37,404 bases of DNA, taken from NCBI GenBank assembly GCA_017550745.1, contig JAFZOG010000095.1:1-37404 (forward strand), given 5' to 3'. A model generated the notes under the pieces. That model saw only the letters and a list, made by a program, of their open reading frames with translations. It was not told the origin of the DNA and ran no database searches. This document shows, one piece after another, positions 4,924 through 33,580 of the stretch. The stretch comes from Clostridia bacterium (GTDB lineage Bacteria; Bacillota; Clostridia; Christensenellales; Aristaeellaceae). The position numbers were made by a program, and so were the translations under genes. Numbering within the stretch: position 1 is the first letter of the stretch; each line of letters starts with the position of its first letter.

Positions 4924-5077
4924 TGTCATCCCGAGCGAAGTGGAGTGGGAACGGAACGGAGTCGAGGGATCTTTGAGCCGGTTGATCTCGTTGCTCAGGT
5001 CTCTCCATTCCGCTGCGCCAGGTCCTTCGACTCCGCTGCGCTCCGCTCAGGATGACATCGCTTCGGTCGGGATGACA
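4924..5077. repeat. TGTCATCC palindromic repeat
   Basis: It begins TGTCATCCCGAGCG and ends with two GATGACA copies (5051-5057 and 5071-5077). Internal arms ACGGAGTCGAGGGATC and TCCTTCGACTCCGC are complementary in part. This family of CTCAGGATGACA-type repeats is widespread in bacterial genomes (recognised from general knowledge). Together with the sigma-E-like promoter it accounts for the 363-bp gap between spoIIIAA and the next gene. Confidence 0.7.
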
Positions 5078-6824: not shown

Positions 6825-6923
6825 ATGAAGTTATTGATGTGAATTGACACATATTTTCATAATAAACAGTTATGGAGAATCGCTTTTTCCTTATCTCAGT
6901 ATATGCCTTTCTCGGAAGGAGGC

Positions 6924-6968
6924 CTGGGGGAAACCGCTCTTTGGGCATCAAAGAGCGGTTTCCCCCAG
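6924..6968. repeat. CTGGGGG hairpin module
   Basis: Perfect 20-bp stem (CTGGGGGAAACCGCTCTTTG with its complement CAAAGAGCGGTTTCCCCCAG) around a GGCAT loop. The left flank CTTTCTCGGAAGG and right flank AACTCT are shared with the copy at 2863-2907. Confidence 0.88.
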
Positions 6969-8406: not shown

Positions 8407-8640
8407 CTGGGGGAACCGCTCTTTGGTGCCCAAAGAGCGGTTCCCCCAGTTCCGCAGCCTCAAAAGTCGCAAGTCCGCTTCATGCGGACATTGCTCGTTT
8501 CGGCTGATCTCACCGTCGATGAGATTTCCGCCTCAGGCGGTCATCGACGGTTCGTCCCCCTCCGAGAAAGGCTATTTCAGCGCAGGCCGGGCGGCAGCCC
8601 CGGAAAGCAAAGAATGGTTTCCCCCAGATATGTGAAGGGC
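8407..8640 (+). repeat. modular structured element, copy C
   Basis: Starts with a perfect 20-bp hairpin (8407-8449), then TTCCGCAGCCTC, then a block (about 8461-8556) that is nearly the same as 23041-23145 on the opposite strand. That block contains the hairpin GTCCGCTTCATGCGGAC (8473-8489) and a larger stem 8512-8522 / 8541-8551 enclosing CCGCCTCAGGCGG. The distal part (8557-8628) carries CTCCGAGAAAGG, the reverse of the flank of the CTGGGGG modules, and ends with another GGTTTCCCCCAG. No coding sequence. It fills the 332-bp gap before the DivIC-like gene. Confidence 0.8.
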
Positions 8641-11933: not shown

Positions 11934-12058
11934 TGTCATCCCGAGCGAAGCCGAGCCAGAGGGGAGGCATAGCCGAGGGATCTGTCAGTGAATCGTTAAG
12001 CCAACCTACAGATCTTTCGACTCCGTTCCGCTCTCGCTCCACTCCACTCAAGATGACA
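11934..12058. repeat. TGTCATCC palindromic repeat
   Basis: Begins TGTCATCCCGAGCGAAGC and ends CTCAAGATGACA; GAGGGATCTGT pairs with ACAGATCTTTCGACTC. Same family as 1-99 and 4924-5077. With the terminator and parS it accounts for the 378-bp gap before recF. Confidence 0.7.
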
Positions 12059-13247: not shown

Positions 13248-13272
13248 TAAATCATACAAGGACACATGAAAT

Positions 13273-13488
13273 AAGTAAAGGGATTGGGGATTAGGGATTA
13301 GGGATTGGGGATCAGGAATCAGGGATCAGGGGAGAACCCACCCAGTCATTCTGACCCGTGTCATCCCTTCGACTACGCTCAGAGCCTGCCCTGAGCGTAG
13401 TCGAAGGGATGACAGGCGAGGCATCGTAGCGGCTCAGGATGACAGACGTGGTTTTTCGCCTAATCCCTAATCCCTGATCCCTTTACTT
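13273..13488. repeat. nested inverted-repeat element with GGGATTA heptamers
   Basis: Outer arms 13273-13302 and 13459-13488 are inverted copies of about 30 bp (two mismatches) made of GGGATTAGGGATTAGG-type tandem units. Inside, 13359-13414 is a perfect palindrome (TGTCATCCCTTCGACTACGC with its complement) of the TGTCATCC family, followed by a further CTCAGGATGACA at 13434-13444. This looks like one repeat inserted in, or assembled within, another. It occupies nearly the whole recF to isomerase gap. Confidence 0.8.
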
Positions 13489-13517
13489 ACTTAAAATACC
13501 CCATTCTTTAAAATGAC

Positions 13518-22668: not shown

Positions 22669-23184
22669 GTAAAGGGAACGCTGGGGTTTCACCCCAGACC
22701 CCACCAGGGGGTTGAACCCCCTGGACCCGCATTAGCGGAAGTTGCTGCAAAGGGAAAGCAGACTTTGTTTCCGCTGATACTTGAGAGAGACAGGCAGGCT
22801 TTCAACGTTATGCTTCTGGCCCGGCGGCTGAAAGCCGCCTGACCGAGCGCAAAGCGTCCGGTGAAAGTCAGTAAAAAGCCATGGGGGAAAGCTTGTTTTC
22901 CCCCATGGCTTCTCACTAACTTTCATGGGCCAGAAGCCGCTCACTTCCGTATCCCCAAATCGACTGGCGAAAATAGCCGGTTCTACCCAACGAAGTGCTT
23001 TCGCCTATTGGGATGCAAGGGATGAAATCTCTTGCCGCAGGACGAACCGCCGATGACCGCCTGGGGCGGGTATCTCATCGGCGGTGAGATCAGCCGAAAC
23101 GAGCAATCTCCGCATGAAGCGGAGTTGCGACCTTTGAGGCTGCGGATCTGGGCGCGCGCAGCGCCCAGCGTTTCCCCCCTGTAA
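22669..23184 (-). repeat. large modular structured element, copy A
   Basis: On the minus strand, in order: hairpin CGCTGGGCGC/GCGCCCAG (about 23144-23169); block shared with copy C (about 23041-23145); block shared with copy B (22926-23039, 110 of 114 identical); an arm GCTTCTGGCCC (minus strand at 22927-22937) paired with GGGCCAGAAGC (minus strand at 22812-22822) that closes a junction holding a long hairpin (22863-22924) and two short ones; a conserved CTCTCAAGTATCAGCGG; and a terminal double hairpin (22679-22735). The two ends form imperfect inverted repeats (GTAAAGGG-AACGCTGGG type). It fills the 622-bp gap downstream of dnaN and has no coding sequence. Confidence 0.85.
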
Positions 23185-23192
23185 CGCCCGTT

Positions 23193-24320
23193 TTACTTGT
23201 TAAAGATCCTGACAGGCAGCACCAGGAAGGTAAAGGCGTTGCCCTCCAGGGGCAGGATCATGCAGGGAGACACGCTGGAATTGAAGCACATGCGCACCTG
23301 TTCGCAGTCGATATTGTGGATGATATCCGTCAGATACCGGGAATTGAACGCGATGCTCAGGTCATTGCCCTGGAAACCGATATCGATCTCCTCATGCACG
23401 TCGCCGCGCTCGGCGTTGGCGGTCATTTCCATGGGGGAATCGGCCTTCATATTCAGGTAGATCAGGTTGTTCTTGCCCTCCCGCGCCATCAGGCTGCACC
23501 GCTCGATGGCGTCGGAAAACAGGCCGCGGGTCACCAGCGCTTCCGTGGTCCAGGAATCGGGCAGGATCCGGTGGTAGTCGATAAATTCACCCGTCAGCAG
23601 CGTGCCGTAGACCTTGACGGAGCCGAAGGTGAACATGATGTGGGAGGAATTCATGGTGATCTGGCACTTTTCCTCCGTGTCCGGCAGCATTTTGCTGACC
23701 TCACCCAGCACCTTCCCCGGCGTGACCGCCTGGATATGGTCCTCCTTCAGGCCCTTTGGCACGTCGTTTTCCGCAGGCACCCGCTGCAGCGCAAGCCTGA
23801 ACCCGTCCAGGCCCACCAGCAGCGTTTCCTTTTCGTAGACCTCCATCAGGATGCCGGTGAGGATCTTGCGGCTCTCGTCCGTGGACACCGCGAACTGCAC
23901 CCGGCTCACCGCGTCCCGGAACCTGCCGCAGGGCAGCACCGCCCGGTATTCGCCGGAAATGTCGCGGATGTCGGGATAGTCCTCCGCTGCCATGCACGCC
24001 ATGGACGCGTTGCTGCCCCGGCTCCTGATGGCCGCGCGCATCCGCTCGTCCACCTTGACCTCTACCTCGCCTACCGGCTGCTTGCGCATCAGCTCCGCAA
24101 ACAGCTTCGCCGGCAGCAGCGCGCATCCGTCCTCTTCCACCAGCGCGTTCACCGTGGCCTTGATGGAGATCTCACCGTCCGTGCACGTCAGCAGCAGACC
24201 TTCCTCCACCGTCTCGATCAGCACCCCGTCGTATACCTGCTTCACCGGCCGCGGAGAAATCGCCCGCGTCACCATCCCTAACCCGTAATTCATTTCGTCG
24301 GTCTGAACCCGAAAATGCAT
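23193..24320 (-). CDS. dnaN: DNA polymerase III sliding clamp, beta subunit
   Basis: 375 residues, usual length, with the three-domain clamp layout: N-terminal TRAISPRPVKQVYDGVLIE, middle ILTGILMEVYEKETLLVGLDGFRLALQR, and C-terminal NSRYLTDII, with the ending SPCMILPLEGNAFTFLVLPVRIF that contributes to the partner-binding cleft. The protein encircles DNA and tethers the replicative polymerase. It starts at ATG 24320, preceded by AAAGGGACGG. The origin region lies directly upstream, as in Bacillus, but dnaA does not. Confidence 0.97.
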   Translation of the reverse strand: MHFRVQTDEMNYGLGMVTRAISPRPVKQVYDGVLIETVEEGLLLTCTDGEISIKATVNALVEEDGCALLPAKLFAELMRKQPVGEVEVKVDERMRAAIRSRGSNASMACMAAEDYPDIRDISGEYRAVLPCGRFRDAVSRVQFAVSTDESRKILTGILMEVYEKETLLVGLDGFRLALQRVPAENDVPKGLKEDHIQAVTPGKVLGEVSKMLPDTEEKCQITMNSSHIMFTFGSVKVYGTLLTGEFIDYHRILPDSWTTEALVTRGLFSDAIERCSLMAREGKNNLIYLNMKADSPMEMTANAERGDVHEEIDIGFQGNDLSIAFNSRYLTDIIHNIDCEQVRMCFNSSVSPCMILPLEGNAFTFLVLPVRIFNK

Positions 24321-24400: not shown

Positions 24401-24828
24401 ACATGTTTGTAGTAGTAATATAAATTCTTCGTAGTAGTATTAGAACCTGTGGAAAATGTGGATAACTTTCCGGATGCCTTGCGCAGCCTCCGTTTCCCGG
24501 CCCTCCTGCGCTGTGGAAATCCCGGTATTTGCTGTGGAAAAACGGGGATAACTTTGCCCGGTTCCCCCCATTTTCGCATATTTTTAGGGAAATTGCAAGG
24601 GGGAGGTTACGCTGGAGAGGGGTTACGCTGGGGCTGTTCGCCCCAGACCCGAACCAGGGGCCACAGGCCCCTGGACCCGCAATAGCGTAACCCCCTGTAA
24701 CTTTTTCTGCCAAAAACCATTTATCCACATTATCCACAATCGCGCAATGCACAGGATGTGGATAAAGAAAGCGAAGAAAATCAAGGGGTCAAAAAAGAAA
24801 TACACAGGATATCCCGGAGTTATCCACA
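24401..24828. other. oriC: chromosomal replication origin (oriC) with DnaA boxes and DnaA-trio-like repeats
   Basis: Consensus DnaA boxes TTATCCACA: 24457-24465 (minus), 24721-24729 (plus), 24730-24738 (plus), 24757-24765 (minus) and 24820-24828 (plus). Near-consensus boxes: 24448-24456, 24512-24520 and 24533-24541. Next to the paired boxes 24448-24465, on the dnaN side, lie two runs of TACTACTAC-type trinucleotides (minus strand, 24431-24443 and 24408-24419) in an AT-rich stretch. These match the known DnaA-trio part of the basal unwinding system and have the same order as in B. subtilis (boxes, trios, dnaN). Identification is from motif density and position. Confidence 0.88.
24612..24706. 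repeat. double-hairpin repeat module inside oriC
   Basis: Two adjacent stems, CTGGGGctgttcgCCCCAG and CCAGGGGCCacaGGCCCCTGG, closed by GGTTACGCT / AGCGTAACC. The same arrangement with different stem sequences is found at 22679-22735, at the end of copy A. It lies between the two DnaA-box clusters. Confidence 0.75.
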
Positions 24829-25818
24829 GGGGGGAAAGGCTTTTTTCCAGACGGGAAGGACGGAGAAAATGAGGACGATACAGCCCAGGGCCATGACGGC
24901 GTAGCAGACGTCCATGCGCATCCAGGTAAGGAAGCTGATTTTCTGTTCCAGGGCAAACTCCATGGCCAGGATGAGGCCGCTGGAGAGGAGGAGGCCCACG
25001 GCGCCGGGAAGGAGGAGGGCCTTGGCGCGCTGGGATTTTTTCAGCAGCCGGACGCAGAGAAGAAAGACCAGGAGCACGGCGATGCCGCTGAAAAGCTGGC
25101 TGGCGCGGACGAAGCCCCATTTGAGGACGGCGTCCTGGCGCATGGATTCCCAGAAGGGCTGGCAGCCGGCGTAGAGGAGCAGGAACAGCAGCGCTTTTCC
25201 CCCGGGGCGGCGTTTTTTCAGGCACATCAGGATCAGGAAAATAACGAAGGCGGTGATGGCTTCCGGAAGGTAGACGGCGAAGCACCAAACGCCGTAATAA
25301 TTCTGTTCTCCCAGGGGAAAGCGGAAGAGGATGCCGGGGTTTTCCCAGGCCACCATGCTTTTTTCCTCAAAGGGATCGAACCATTCCTCGATGTCGTAGC
25401 CGTAGCCCAGGTTCACCAGGGGCTCTGCCATGCGGCAGGCGGCGATCATGAGGGCGGTGGGCGCGGCGGCGGCGTCCAGGATATTTCCCAGGGGCTGGCG
25501 CGTGATCTTCGCGGTCAGGGCCCCGGCGAGGAGGCCGCCCAGCAGGGCGCCGTAGAGCATGTAGCCCCCCCGGGTCAGCTGCCAGAAGAAGCTGAGGCCC
25601 TGGTCCAGCAGCCAGTCGATGGACACCAGGCAGTATCCGATGCGTCCGCAGAGCACCGCCAGCGGGATGGCAAGCACGGCAAACCAGCTGACCGTGCCGG
25701 GCTTGAGGGCGTGCTTTTTCCCCAGCCATTCCATGAGCAAAAGCCCCGCCAGGGCGGAGGCGGCCAGGACCAGCCCGTAGCGGTAAAATGTGATGGGCCC
25801 GATCTGAAACGCTGCCAT
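24820..25818 (-). CDS. prolipoprotein diacylglyceryl transferase-like membrane protein, lacking the catalytic His
   Basis: 332 residues, about seven or more membrane segments. Lgt-like landmarks are present: LCGRIGYCLV (57-65), GGYMLYGALLGGLLAG (84-99) and the Arg-containing CRMAEPLVNLGYG (128-140). In canonical Lgt the second motif is H-G-G and its His is essential; here the position is Tyr-Gly-Ala. The usual GRxxNFxNxE signature is also degenerate. It is therefore either a diverged enzyme or a paralogue of different function. It starts 3 bp after the upstream glycosidase gene, with GGAGG in that gene's end, so the two are coupled. Its stop codon lies within a DnaA box. Confidence 0.75.
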   Translation of the reverse strand: MAAFQIGPITFYRYGLVLAASALAGLLLMEWLGKKHALKPGTVSWFAVLAIPLAVLCGRIGYCLVSIDWLLDQGLSFFWQLTRGGYMLYGALLGGLLAGALTAKITRQPLGNILDAAAAPTALMIAACRMAEPLVNLGYGYDIEEWFDPFEEKSMVAWENPGILFRFPLGEQNYYGVWCFAVYLPEAITAFVIFLILMCLKKRRPGGKALLFLLLYAGCQPFWESMRQDAVLKWGFVRASQLFSGIAVLLVFLLCVRLLKKSQRAKALLLPGAVGLLLSSGLILAMEFALEQKISFLTWMRMDVCYAVMALGCIVLIFSVLPVWKKAFPPCG

Positions 25819-30578: not shown

Positions 30579-30777
30579 CGAAAGGCTTCCCCTGGCAGGG
30601 GAAGCTGTCAGGCGCGGAACCAACTTCGAGCGTGTCATCATGTAATTTCGCGCCTGACTGATGAGGCGCTCCCCTTGTTTGGTTTCATAAAAGCGGCTTC
30701 TCTTATAGCCTGCTTGAAGGTGCACCTCATCCGGCGCTTCGCGCCACCTTCCCCTGCCAGGGGAAGGCTTTCAAAGA
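30579..30777. repeat. palindromic repeat with 25-bp inverted ends
   Basis: The ends, each containing CTTCCCCTGGCAGGGGAAG or its complement preceded by GAAAG, are inverted copies of about 25 bp and each is itself a hairpin. Internal stems are GTCAGGCGCG with CGCGCCTGAC, and GGCGCTTCGCGCC near 30733. The CACCTCATCCGGCGCTTCGC part is familiar as a widespread repeat in gut Clostridia. It sits between the binding-protein and permease genes of one transporter. Confidence 0.75.
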
Positions 30778-30851: not shown

Positions 30852-31751
30852 ATGACCAGCAAACAAAAGCGCAAGCTGACGGAATTCCTGTTCCTGGTGC
30901 CGACGCTGCTTGCGTTTCTGATGGTCATCATCATTCCGTTCATCTACGGTATCTTCTATTCCTTCACCGACTGGCAGGGCACCGGCTCCTTCAGCAAGAT
31001 GGTGGGCTTTGAAAACTACGCCGCCATCTTCAATGAGCCCGCCTTCCTGCATTCCTTCCTGGTGACGCTCAAGTTCACCGTCATCAACATCATCACGGTC
31101 AACGTGGTGGCGTTCATCATCTCCCTGCTGGTCACCAGCGAAATCCGGGGCCGCAACGTGTACCGCGCGGGCTTCTTCGTGCCCAACCTGATCGGCGGTA
31201 TCGTGCTGGGCCTGATCTGGCAGTTCATTTTCAGCAACATCCTGCCCTCCGTGGGCGCGGCCATCGGCTGGGACCTGATCAGCAAGTCCCTGATTTCCAA
31301 TAAGGACACCGTCATGTTCACCATGGTCACCGTGAACACCTGGCAGTACGCCGGCTACATCATGCTGATCTATGTGGCGGCCATCCAGAGCATTTCCAAG
31401 TCCGTCATGGAGGCGGCGGAGGTGGACGGCGCCAAGTACTGGACCCGCATCACCAAGATCCAGATCCCCCTCATGGCCAACGCCTTCACCATCTCCCTGT
31501 TCCTGACGCTGACCAACAGCTTCAAGATGTACGACGTGAACGTGGCCCTGACCAACGGCGGCCCCGTGGGCATCTTCATGAACAAGCCCGTCAACAGCTC
31601 GGAGCTCCTGGCCCTCAACATCTACCAGACCGCGTTCAAATACAACAACATGGCCCAGGGCCAGGCCAAGGCCGTGCTGTTCTTCGTGGTGCTGACCATC
31701 TTCTCCATTATCCAGGTCTCCTATAACAAGAGCAAGGAGGTGGAAGCGTAA
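30852..31751 (+). CDS. sugar ABC transporter permease (MalF/UgpA type)
   Basis: 299 residues with six membrane segments (first at about 12-33) and the EAA loop EAAEVDGAKYWTRITKIQIPLM in the third quarter, which contacts the ATPase. Family landmarks: PFIYGIFYSFTDWQG and NLIGGIVLGLIWQFIF. GGGGGAACAAGCC precedes the ATG; the stop overlaps the next ATG (TAATG). Confidence 0.94.
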   Translation: MTSKQKRKLTEFLFLVPTLLAFLMVIIIPFIYGIFYSFTDWQGTGSFSKMVGFENYAAIFNEPAFLHSFLVTLKFTVINIITVNVVAFIISLLVTSEIRGRNVYRAGFFVPNLIGGIVLGLIWQFIFSNILPSVGAAIGWDLISKSLISNKDTVMFTMVTVNTWQYAGYIMLIYVAAIQSISKSVMEAAEVDGAKYWTRITKIQIPLMANAFTISLFLTLTNSFKMYDVNVALTNGGPVGIFMNKPVNSSELLALNIYQTAFKYNNMAQGQAKAVLFFVVLTIFSIIQVSYNKSKEVEA

Positions 31752-32650
31752 TGGCTAAGAAGCAACCCGAACAGATCGAGCGCATGGCCGGTTCCATCCC
31801 CCATCCGGGGCGGCGGATTGCCCTGGAGGTCGTCACGCTGCTCCTCTTTATCCTGTTCATGCTGCCTTTCGTCATTGTGATCATGAACTCCATGCGCACC
31901 AATGCCGAAATCATCAACGCGCCCGTGGGCCTGCCGGAGAATCCGGCCAACCTGTTCCAGAACATTTCCGACGTGTGGAACAACCCCACCTTCAATTTCC
32001 TTTCCGCCTGCCGTGACAGCCTGATCATCACCGTGCTGTCCCTGGCCGCCATCTCCATCTTCTCGGCCATGGCAGCCTGGGTGCTGGTGCGCAACAAGAC
32101 CAAGTGGAGCAACCTTTTGTTCCTCATGTACGTTGCCGCCATGGTCATCCCCTTCCAGGTGGTTATGTTCCCGTTGCTTACCTGGTTCAAGACCGTGGGC
32201 GATTTCCTGCATATCCCCATGCTGCGCTCTTACCAGGGCATCATCTTCGCTTACCTGGGCTTCGGCGAAGCCATGAGCATCTTCATCTTCCACGGCTTCA
32301 TCAAGGGCGTGCCCCTGGAGCTGGAGGAAGCGGCGGACATCGACGGCTGCTCCCGGGCGGGCACTTTCTTCCGCATCGTGTTCCCGCTGCTGCAGCCCGT
32401 GTTCGTCACCGTCCTGGTGCTCAACGGCCTGTGGATCTGGAACGACTACCTGCTGCCGCTGCTGGTGCTGGGCGCTTCCGGCGATATCCGCACCATCCCC
32501 CTGGCCGTGCAGGGCTTCAACGGCTCCTTCGTCAAGCAGTGGAACCTGATCATGGTCTCTACCCTGCTGGCCATGCTGCCCATCATCATCCTGTATATCT
32601 TCGCCCAGAAGTATATCGTCAAGGGTATGGTGGAAGGCTCCATCAAATAA
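31751..32650 (+). CDS. sugar ABC transporter permease (MalG/UgpE type)
   Basis: 299 residues with six membrane segments and the EAA loop LEEAADIDGCSRAGTFFRIVFPLL. Landmarks: LFILFMLPFVIVIMNSMRTNAEI near the N-terminus and LNGLWIWNDYLLPLLVL. It starts one base into the preceding stop codon, so it is translationally coupled. No ATPase gene follows; carbohydrate importers of this class commonly share an MsmX-type ATPase encoded elsewhere. Confidence 0.94.
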   Translation: MAKKQPEQIERMAGSIPHPGRRIALEVVTLLLFILFMLPFVIVIMNSMRTNAEIINAPVGLPENPANLFQNISDVWNNPTFNFLSACRDSLIITVLSLAAISIFSAMAAWVLVRNKTKWSNLLFLMYVAAMVIPFQVVMFPLLTWFKTVGDFLHIPMLRSYQGIIFAYLGFGEAMSIFIFHGFIKGVPLELEEAADIDGCSRAGTFFRIVFPLLQPVFVTVLVLNGLWIWNDYLLPLLVLGASGDIRTIPLAVQGFNGSFVKQWNLIMVSTLLAMLPIIILYIFAQKYIVKGMVEGSIK

Positions 32651-32708: not shown

Positions 32709-32730
32709 CGGCAGCATGGATTGTGCGAAG

Positions 32731-33179
32731 GGCACTTTAAGCCAGTAAAGGGATACGCTGGGCGCTGCGCGCGCCCAGACCTGCGGCAAGGGATTTCATC
32801 CCTTGCATCCCAATAGGCGAAAGCACTTCGTTGGGTAGAACCGGCTATTTTCGCCAGTCGATTCGGGGATGCGGAAGTTAGCGGCTTCTGGCCCAAGAAA
32901 GCCGGGAAAATCTCCAGGGGAAAGCTCGCTTTCCCCTGGAGATTATTCCCTGGCTTTCACCGGACGCTTTGCGTCCGGTCAGGCGGCTTTCAGCCGCCGG
33001 GCCAGAAGCATAACGTCGAAAGTTTGTTATGCTCTCTCAAGTATCAGCGGGAATAAAGCCAATTCGTCCTCACAGGTTGTTTCCGCTACAGGAGTCCAGA
33101 GGACGAAGTCCTTTGGTGCAGGTGCACGAGGGCCGCAGAGGCCCTCGCCCCGTCGTTCCATTAGCGACTTAAAGTGCCC
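32731..33179 (+). repeat. large modular structured element, copy B
   Basis: Bounded by inverted repeats GGGCACTTTAAG (32731-32742) and CTTAAAGTGCCC (33168-33179). In plus orientation it holds: hairpin CGCTGGGCGC/GCGCCCAG; the 114-bp block 32782-32895 (110 of 114 identical to copy A); a junction closed by 32884-32894 with 32999-33009 that contains the long hairpin 32897-32958 and the stems CCGGACGCTTTGCGTCCGG and GGCGGCTTTCAGCCGCC; CTCTCAAGTATCAGCGG; and two terminal hairpins. The copy-C block is absent. It fills the 549-bp gap before the phage-type cassette. Confidence 0.85.
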
Positions 33180-33199: not shown

Positions 33200-33580
33200 A
33201 TGACCATCGAAAAAGCGATTTTCCAGGCGGACGAATTAAAGCCCAATCAAGTGGCGAAGGCGCAGAAGATCGACTGGCTGAGCCACCTGGACAGGCGGGT
33301 GTTCAAAGAGGTGATTTCCGCCCATGTGCCCGACGGAAACACGCCGCAGGCTTTCACGCCCTACGACCAGGACACCCCGGCGGATACGGAGCTGCTGGCG
33401 AAAGCGCCGTATGACGACATTTATCCCTATTTCCTGTCCATGCAGATCGACCTGGCAAACCTGGAATATGACAAATACAACAACAGCATGCTGCTGTTCA
33501 CCGACGCCTTTGGCCAGTTCGCCCGGGCGTATCACCGGGAGCACCGCTTCAAGCAGGAAGCGAACGCCTTGAAATTCTGA
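33200..33580 (+). CDS. phage-type structural protein of unknown function
   Basis: 126 residues, mostly helical, with the stretches WLSHLDRRVFKEVISAH and PYDDIYPYFLSMQIDLANLEYDKYNNSMLLFTDAFGQFARAYHREHR. The pattern of short proteins ending in a tyrosine-rich helix is seen in phage connector/adaptor-type genes, and the three genes that follow look like phage structural genes. The exact role is inferred from context only. AAAGGAG precedes the ATG; the next gene is 14 bp downstream. Confidence 0.65.
   Translation: MTIEKAIFQADELKPNQVAKAQKIDWLSHLDRRVFKEVISAHVPDGNTPQAFTPYDQDTPADTELLAKAPYDDIYPYFLSMQIDLANLEYDKYNNSMLLFTDAFGQFARAYHREHRFKQEANALKF

Follow-up and report, generated by a model that had tools for sequence, protein, structure and literature searches.

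The window (the whole 37,404-nucleotide stretch of DNA analysed here) belongs to a Clostridia bacterium of the family Aristaeellaceae (genome G000; 3.75 Mb in 186 contigs, 89% complete) and holds, beside dnaN and beside an ABC-permease gene, two copies, denoted A and B, of one hairpin-rich element of ∼450 nt (Table 1). The two have blocks of 122 nt (96% identity) and 109 nt (88%) in common. The earlier note had counted a third stretch, C, as another copy, but C has a single block in common with A (113 nt at 92%), denoted module M2, and none with B in pairwise sequence comparison, so that C, rather than being a third copy, consists of another hairpin with M2 behind it. The extent of B in Table 1 corrects the 32731-33179 of the earlier note; on element A, no GGGCAC end was found.

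Table 1. Coordinates of elements A, B and C and of their parts in the window
Feature	Position	Strand	Context or basis
Element B, complete end-to-end unit	32730..33179	+	between ABC-permease gene (31751-32650) and unassigned ORF (33200-33580)
B left inverted end GGGCACTTTAAGCCA	32730..32744	+	sequence
B right inverted end, minus-strand reading GGGCACTTTAAGTCG	33165..33179	-	sequence
B left-arm hairpin M1	32758..32778	+	sequence, fold
B left-arm hairpin P3, strongest covariation of the family	32786..32806	+	sequence, fold, covariation
B left-arm block P4 (GGCGAA...TTCGCC)	32816..32855	+	sequence, alignment
B centre: three hairpins inside closing stem GCTTCTGGCCC/GGGCCAGAAGC	32884..33009	+	sequence, fold
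B hairpin M4	32897..32958	+	sequence swapped between copies, pairing retained; loop in either orientation across the family
B hairpin M5a	32960..32978	+	loop in either orientation across the family
B hairpin M5b	32982..32998	+	covariation, stem/loop counts
B right arm, inverted homologue of left arm (P4', P3')	33033..33122	-	profile match
B right-arm hairpin M1'	33127..33147	+	sequence, fold
Element A	22669..23193	-	B-type core, other tail, M2 between M1 and P3; directly downstream of dnaN
Core of A	22811..23041	-	family-profile match, E 9e-58
Module M2 within A	23041..23144	-	sequence match
Right arm of A, inverted homologue of left arm	22702..22788	+	profile match
C: CTGGGGGAACCGC hairpin (8407-8449), then module M2	8407..8640	+	only M2 common with A
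Module M2 within C	8453..8556	+	sequence match

The modules of B follow each other in the order M1, P3, P4, centre (M4, M5a, M5b), P4', P3' and M1'. When the left half of 80 copies, all in the sense orientation, was made into a profile, this profile recognised 61 of 80 right tails after reverse complementation, compared with one match in the wrong-strand control; the element is thus a two-fold inverted repeat.

All three stretches fold better than their dinucleotide shuffles, with minimum free energy z-scores of -15.1 for B, -11.2 for A and -6.6 for C. The three paired changes named in the earlier note, including the replaced long hairpin, are all present in the sequence. The broader claims, that the copies differ mainly by paired substitutions and that covariation extends across a fold of several hundred nucleotides, hold only locally. 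Among the 180 unique core copies collected from related loci, one was dropped for gaps and seven of the remaining 179 as near-duplicates; in the 172 copies tested against a purpose-written tree-based null (20 simulations), 13 column pairs reached E ≤0.05, these E-values being a guide only because recombination between copies violates the tree assumption. Nine of the 13 pairs are complementary, and all nine lie in four local hairpins, P3, M4, M5a and M5b; the other four are non-complementary and lie within P3 and its neighbourhood. No long-range column pair was significant in the 172 copies. On the core, RNAalifold recovers no more than a partial structure, the closing stem P5 is nearly invariant, and the blocks between the hairpins are conserved.

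The mismatches tolerated in the stems bear on whether the fold is that of RNA or of DNA. Over the unique arm pairs of six stems, G·T (116) and A·C (105) are about equally frequent, and therefore there is no overall preference for the pairs that only RNA would tolerate. M4 taken alone has 91 G·T versus 46 A·C mismatches, 47 of the 91 falling at two positions, and two stems lean towards A·C, namely P4 (8 G·T versus 31 A·C) and P3 (5 versus 16). The loops of M5a and M4 are found in either orientation (for example, CAAAG 67 and CTTTG 46; GCTCGC 48 and GCGAGC 18); the P3 loops show no clear orientation flips. The Rfam search that the earlier note had proposed as a check gave no match at the curated gathering thresholds in the window and 13 related loci, and a known RNA family was accordingly rejected. 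When matches with E ≤1 are admitted, A gives six sub-threshold ones, of which five, to families of microRNA precursors and frameshift elements (best E 9e-07), fall on the M4 hairpin and the sixth, to a CRISPR-repeat family, beside M4.

In its own genome, BLAST yields 69 matches for B, 68 for A and 54 for C, these being counts of pieces, many of them partial and many at contig ends. B is matched by 35 of 150 genomes, its own included, with the other genera represented mostly by short pieces. In an exact-pattern scan of named genomes, the matches listed are mostly from uncultured Clostridiales, Clostridia, Christensenellaceae and Oscillospiraceae, and several of the assemblies among them bear names that refer to samples from goat or red deer; two Chloroflexi matches among those listed are probably due to chance. 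What is seen are short, hairpin-rich, non-coding cassettes between the genes of rumen Clostridia, in fragmented assemblies where many units are interrupted by contig ends. There was no match to B in the phage and plasmid sequence searches and none to A in Escherichia coli genomes; among viral contigs, a 20-base core pattern was matched by one and a 24-base pattern by none. A 4.3-kb contig from a viral collection (L348, 1809-1982) that carries a GGACACTTTAAATCA end together with the core pattern may be a bacterial fragment. In the open-licence literature, no paper was recognised as describing this element.

A complete unit is bounded by the inverted 15-base motif GGGCACTTTAANTCA, with 91 exact occurrences across 11 of the 29 genomes of the genus, compared with none for the reversed pattern. 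Across the 308 family genomes searched, exact matches are confined to 11, all in one genus; three genomes (G010, G020 and G004) together have 65 of the 91 ends, and the own genome has 14. In the consensus, the arms TGANTTAAA/TTTAANTCA flank GGGCAC, the outer arm being weak. Next to the ends, on their outer side, there is a weak outward half-site (TNNNTTAAA), made up of TTAAA at -5 to -1 and a T at -9 (111 ends). In the structured class, the left ends (48) and the right ends (49) have it alike; on the smaller cargo classes (8-24 ends each), it is noisier. One and the same end motif bounds several unrelated palindromic cargos, which, as classified with short regular expressions, include the structured element, degenerate-word palindromes (CAGAGTTCAGAG, GTAGGAGGTAGG), GGGATTAGGG/CATCCCGA palindromes and CCTTCCCC palindromes.

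The 18 two-ended elements (152-586 bp, two of them with one right end in common) show no target duplication, the identity between left and right flanks over 1-12 bp being like that of permuted flanks; a 3.3-kb pair of weak ends enclosing coding-like sequence (L315) was left out of this set. Against 20 shuffles each, these 18 elements have folding z-scores of -5 to -22, and their two strands reach similar energies. Their flanks show no more mirror symmetry than permuted flanks do, and an element-specific palindromic target was accordingly rejected. Of 142 flanks inspected roughly for reading frames, 131 have a long frame that ends or starts outside the slot and 11 have an open frame that enters it, so that not every slot is surely intergenic. 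An outer motif, GTAACTGTTCAGTCG (up to four mismatches), is found at most 60 nt outside 29 of 119 GGGCAC ends, compared with one in the shuffled control, and mostly begins 24-28 nt out. The same motif forms the ends (GTAACTGYTCAGTCG) of another palindrome (L287, 1867-2080) that is present in one genome and missing in the other (L134). Judged by eye, its target of ∼8 bp is duplicated, and because of these ends and this duplication, DDE-type MITEs probably exist here as well.

The contents of orthologous sites differ between genomes. At one such site, the structured element is present in G007 and G014, and a spacer of 34-35 nt in G020 and G010 (L123/L331, L129/L231). A unit of G020 (G020:C36:15447) has no counterpart at the equivalent positions in G007 and G010. 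A 448-bp structured unit that follows a gene end in G010 (G010:C22:8622) corresponds to similar ends with another palindrome in G020, to a third content nearby in G014 and to none in G007 and G000.

A systematic comparison of the G010 units with the sister genome G020 covers the 24 of 30 G010 ends that have an orthologous flank (80-95% identical), which make up 23 slots; the other six ends are without an orthologue among the G020 loci compared. At these 23 slots, all with the structured element in G010, G020 has a different class in 18, the structured class in three and nothing recognisable in two, the contents being CCTTCCCC palindromes (12), CATCCCGA palindromes (3), degenerate palindromes (3), the structured element (3) and nothing (2). 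The orthology mostly rests on a single flank, with both flanks matching in four slots, all four of which hold different contents in the two genomes. Flank identity extends to 14 nt or less from the slot in 18 of the 24 ends and halts 20-89 nt short in six; 15 of the 18 class-differing slots have identity to within 14 nt. Some of the G020 loci were chosen because they carried the end motif, and for the 15 G010 slots unmatched by such motif-chosen loci (14 with an orthologue), the outcome is 10 different, two structured and two empty. The end motif is recognisable with at most three mismatches at 11 of the 24 orthologous junctions, compared with 2 of 742 control windows, and at 3 of the 14 junctions that were not motif-chosen in G020; at the other 13 of the 24, the sister genome's motif has more than three mismatches. 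Two G020 slot stretches fold no better than shuffles (L409, z -0.7; L399, z -0.2). Within G010, the first 60 nt inward from the first end base are alike at seven ends, with at most one difference. The slot positions appear to be inherited, and their contents to turn over and become alike within one genome.

Module M2 (∼105 nt), found in A and C, is probably a second small repeat that appears and vanishes in or beside such hairpins. When element copies with and without M2 are compared, rather than orthologous sites, the module lies in the M5b loop in four comparisons (L127/L329, L313/L312, L341/L278, L345/L292) and beside M1 in one (L250/L288). Strict insertion into hairpin loops did not hold up as a general rule, flanking stems of at least 6 bp being present in 6 of 43 full copies versus 4.3 expected, which is not significant; on reading the sequence of M2, no inverted ends were recognised.

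The window contains further palindromes. The hairpin of C is one of three CTGGGGGAAACCGCTCTTTGG hairpin repeats (2841-2907, 6902-6968 and 8407-8449), and elsewhere a 109-bp stretch with such a hairpin is present in L308 and missing from the orthologous site in L302. The palindrome of GGGATTAGGG and CATCC words at 13261-13501, with a decayed GGGCAC-type end GGGTATTTTAAGTAA (13501-13487, minus strand), probably represents a further class of cargo in this system. A CATCCCGAGCGAAG repeat near the window start (1-141) is bordered on the outside by an exact match to GTAACTGTTCAGTCG (141-127, minus strand), additional TGTCATCCCGAGCGAAG palindromes lie at 4924-5077 and 11934-12058, and a CCTTCCCCTGCCAGGGGAAGG hairpin at 30747-30767 has the core word of the commonest cargo class in the compared G020 slots. 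Next to dnaN, at 24580-24830, hairpins related to the arm of the element stand beside clusters of TTATCCACA, which we take to be DnaA-box-like, and this region is possibly a replication origin.

Several candidates for the mobiliser were considered. Y1_Tnp is encoded in 10 of the 29 genus genomes, with one in the own genome, but was not detected in G010, G020 and G004 (81, 91 and 80% complete, respectively), which leaves a RAYT/Y1 enzyme unsupported as the resident mobiliser. The 27 tyrosine-recombinase loci in six genomes yielded one match to the end, with three mismatches, and none of them could be linked to adjoining ends. Neither a transposase nor an autonomous parent with GGGCACTTTAANTCA ends was seen among the related loci, the assemblies of which are incomplete. 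A bare end-hairpin as the ancestral slot was likewise dropped, since exact CACTTTAA/TTAAAGTG with 6-36 nt between them occurs in none of the 29 genomes.

Comparison with known systems yields partial parallels. MITEs have short inverted ends, are non-coding and are presumably moved in trans; the present elements are like them in being multicopy and non-coding with inverted terminal repeats, and unlike them in that target duplication is absent from the 18 elements and no parent element was found among the related loci. REPINs, as described in the part of the source used here, combine conserved inverted ends with a variable hairpin spacer that shows compensatory changes, and are present in many copies (PMC3116915). 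The elements described here resemble them in the conserved inverted ends around a hairpin spacer and in copy number, but are ∼150-590 bp long and carry unrelated cargos, and Y1 was not detected in the three end-richest genomes. Among the pneumococcal repeats BOX, RUP and SPRITE, BOX and RUP create target duplications, unlike the present elements, and slot exchange is absent from the portion of the description consulted (PMC3049150). The bcr1 repeat of the Bacillus cereus group, again going by its description only, is similarly a structured repeat with mobile-element characteristics, albeit shorter (147-167 bp; PMC2267715).

The closest described parallels, within the parts of the sources drawn on, are REPINs and MITEs together with the small mobile repeats and SwitchRepeats of the archaeon Haloquadratum walsbyi, the latter being the nearest. 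The excerpt used here (PMC3119063) describes SMR-A of ∼110 bp, with prominent inverted ends and no target duplication, that insert into the palindromes of other elements, and SwitchRepeats, in which two distinct repeats, or one repeat inverted, occupy the identical position in two strains; the authors state that the mobilization mechanism 'remains enigmatic'. The elements described here are, like these, short and non-coding, without target duplication and with a mobiliser that is not known; M2, at ∼105 nt in or beside hairpins, recalls SMR-A, although it shows none of the prominent inverted ends of the latter on reading, and the different class at 18 of 23 slots recalls SwitchRepeats (PMC3119063). 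The phenomenon therefore has a described archaeal relative (PMC3119063), from which it differs in that the host is a bacterium and that several long palindromic cargos are framed by one end motif. What seems to be new is the presence, in a bacterium, of this common end motif around several long palindromic cargos, together with the change of class at 18 of the 23 slots compared.

We consider it probable that A and B are non-coding, non-autonomous palindromic mobile DNA, swapped at inherited slots by a trans-acting activity, and not a new RNA class. The element is a large nested palindrome, that is, a long inverted repeat with hairpin-bearing arms and a three-hairpin centre, and a putative trans-acting enzyme would move or exchange its units at the GGGCACTTTAANTCA ends; the hairpins would be kept as DNA palindromes that the exchange needs or tolerates, or be copied from arm to arm in replication, with no selection on an RNA fold. 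Mobility, part of what the earlier note had suggested in proposing a mobile structured RNA or a new non-coding RNA, is supported because orthologous sites occur with the element, without it or with other contents. The RNA part of that proposal, under which the covariation reflects selection on the RNA fold, is highly improbable: the strong fold (z -15.1), the nine covarying complementary pairs, the nearly invariant P5 and the conserved inter-hairpin blocks, and the G·T excess of M4 speak for it, but overall G·T is no commoner than A·C, loops occur in either orientation, the two strands fold equally well, the halves are homologous in inverted orientation, significant covariation is confined to local hairpins, the sister genome holds other palindromes at the same site, and Rfam offers no match. 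Just as slim a chance is given to REPIN-like elements moved by a RAYT/Y1 (HUH) transposase that acts on single-stranded DNA, akin to the transposable single-stranded-DNA repeat that the earlier note had also considered and that is conceivable. The architecture is the same, with inverted conserved ends around a middle of hairpins with compensatory changes, at least as the portion of the REPIN study used here describes it (PMC3116915), and target duplication is absent from the 18 elements; against this, Y1_Tnp was not found in the three genomes, 80-91% complete, that hold 65 of the 91 exact ends, and the half-site preference is identical on both ends.

Two other alternatives are to be weighed against palindromic DNA swapped by a trans-acting activity. 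It is conceivable, if on balance unlikely, that these are ordinary MITEs of one IS family, whose DDE transposase would have such a strong target preference that sister species acquired independent insertions at one site. Short inverted ends, no coding capacity, a weak AT-rich target motif and the adjacent palindrome with GTAACTGYTCAGTCG ends and a target duplication of ∼8 bp (by eye) are in keeping with MITEs, unlike the 18 elements without duplication and the end motif that falls on the identical base at several slots despite the weak flank motif; nor was an autonomous copy seen among the related loci, where the 3.3-kb weak-end pair of L315 looks coding. Rather unlikely is the view that the slots are old hairpin sites, with interiors rewritten by replication template switching or by gene conversion via end homologies, and no dedicated enzyme. 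Such rewriting would account for the loop flips, for arm-to-arm correction and for the near-identical units within one genome, as at the seven G010 ends, but the cargo classes have just ∼15-20 bp of end homology, sites with versus without a unit do not follow from it alone, and no exact bare end-hairpin of CACTTTAA and TTAAAGTG exists in the 29 genomes. Where palindromic DNA is indeed swapped at inherited slots, the agent can be envisaged more concretely. The core site of a tyrosine recombinase consists of inverted arms around a 6-8 bp core and is the substrate of the integrase; it is a quite doubtful conjecture that the GGGCAC end and the outward half-site form such a recombinase core site in a cassette-exchange system, in which a dedicated recombinase would swap palindromes between fixed slots, so that each species fills the inherited slots with its currently dominant palindrome.

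Paired substitutions are often read as a sign of functional RNA; the strand symmetry and the loop flips suggest that mobile DNA palindromes can mimic it. If the exchange at the slots is confirmed, the turnover of small palindromic repeats in bacterial intergenic regions would become testable.
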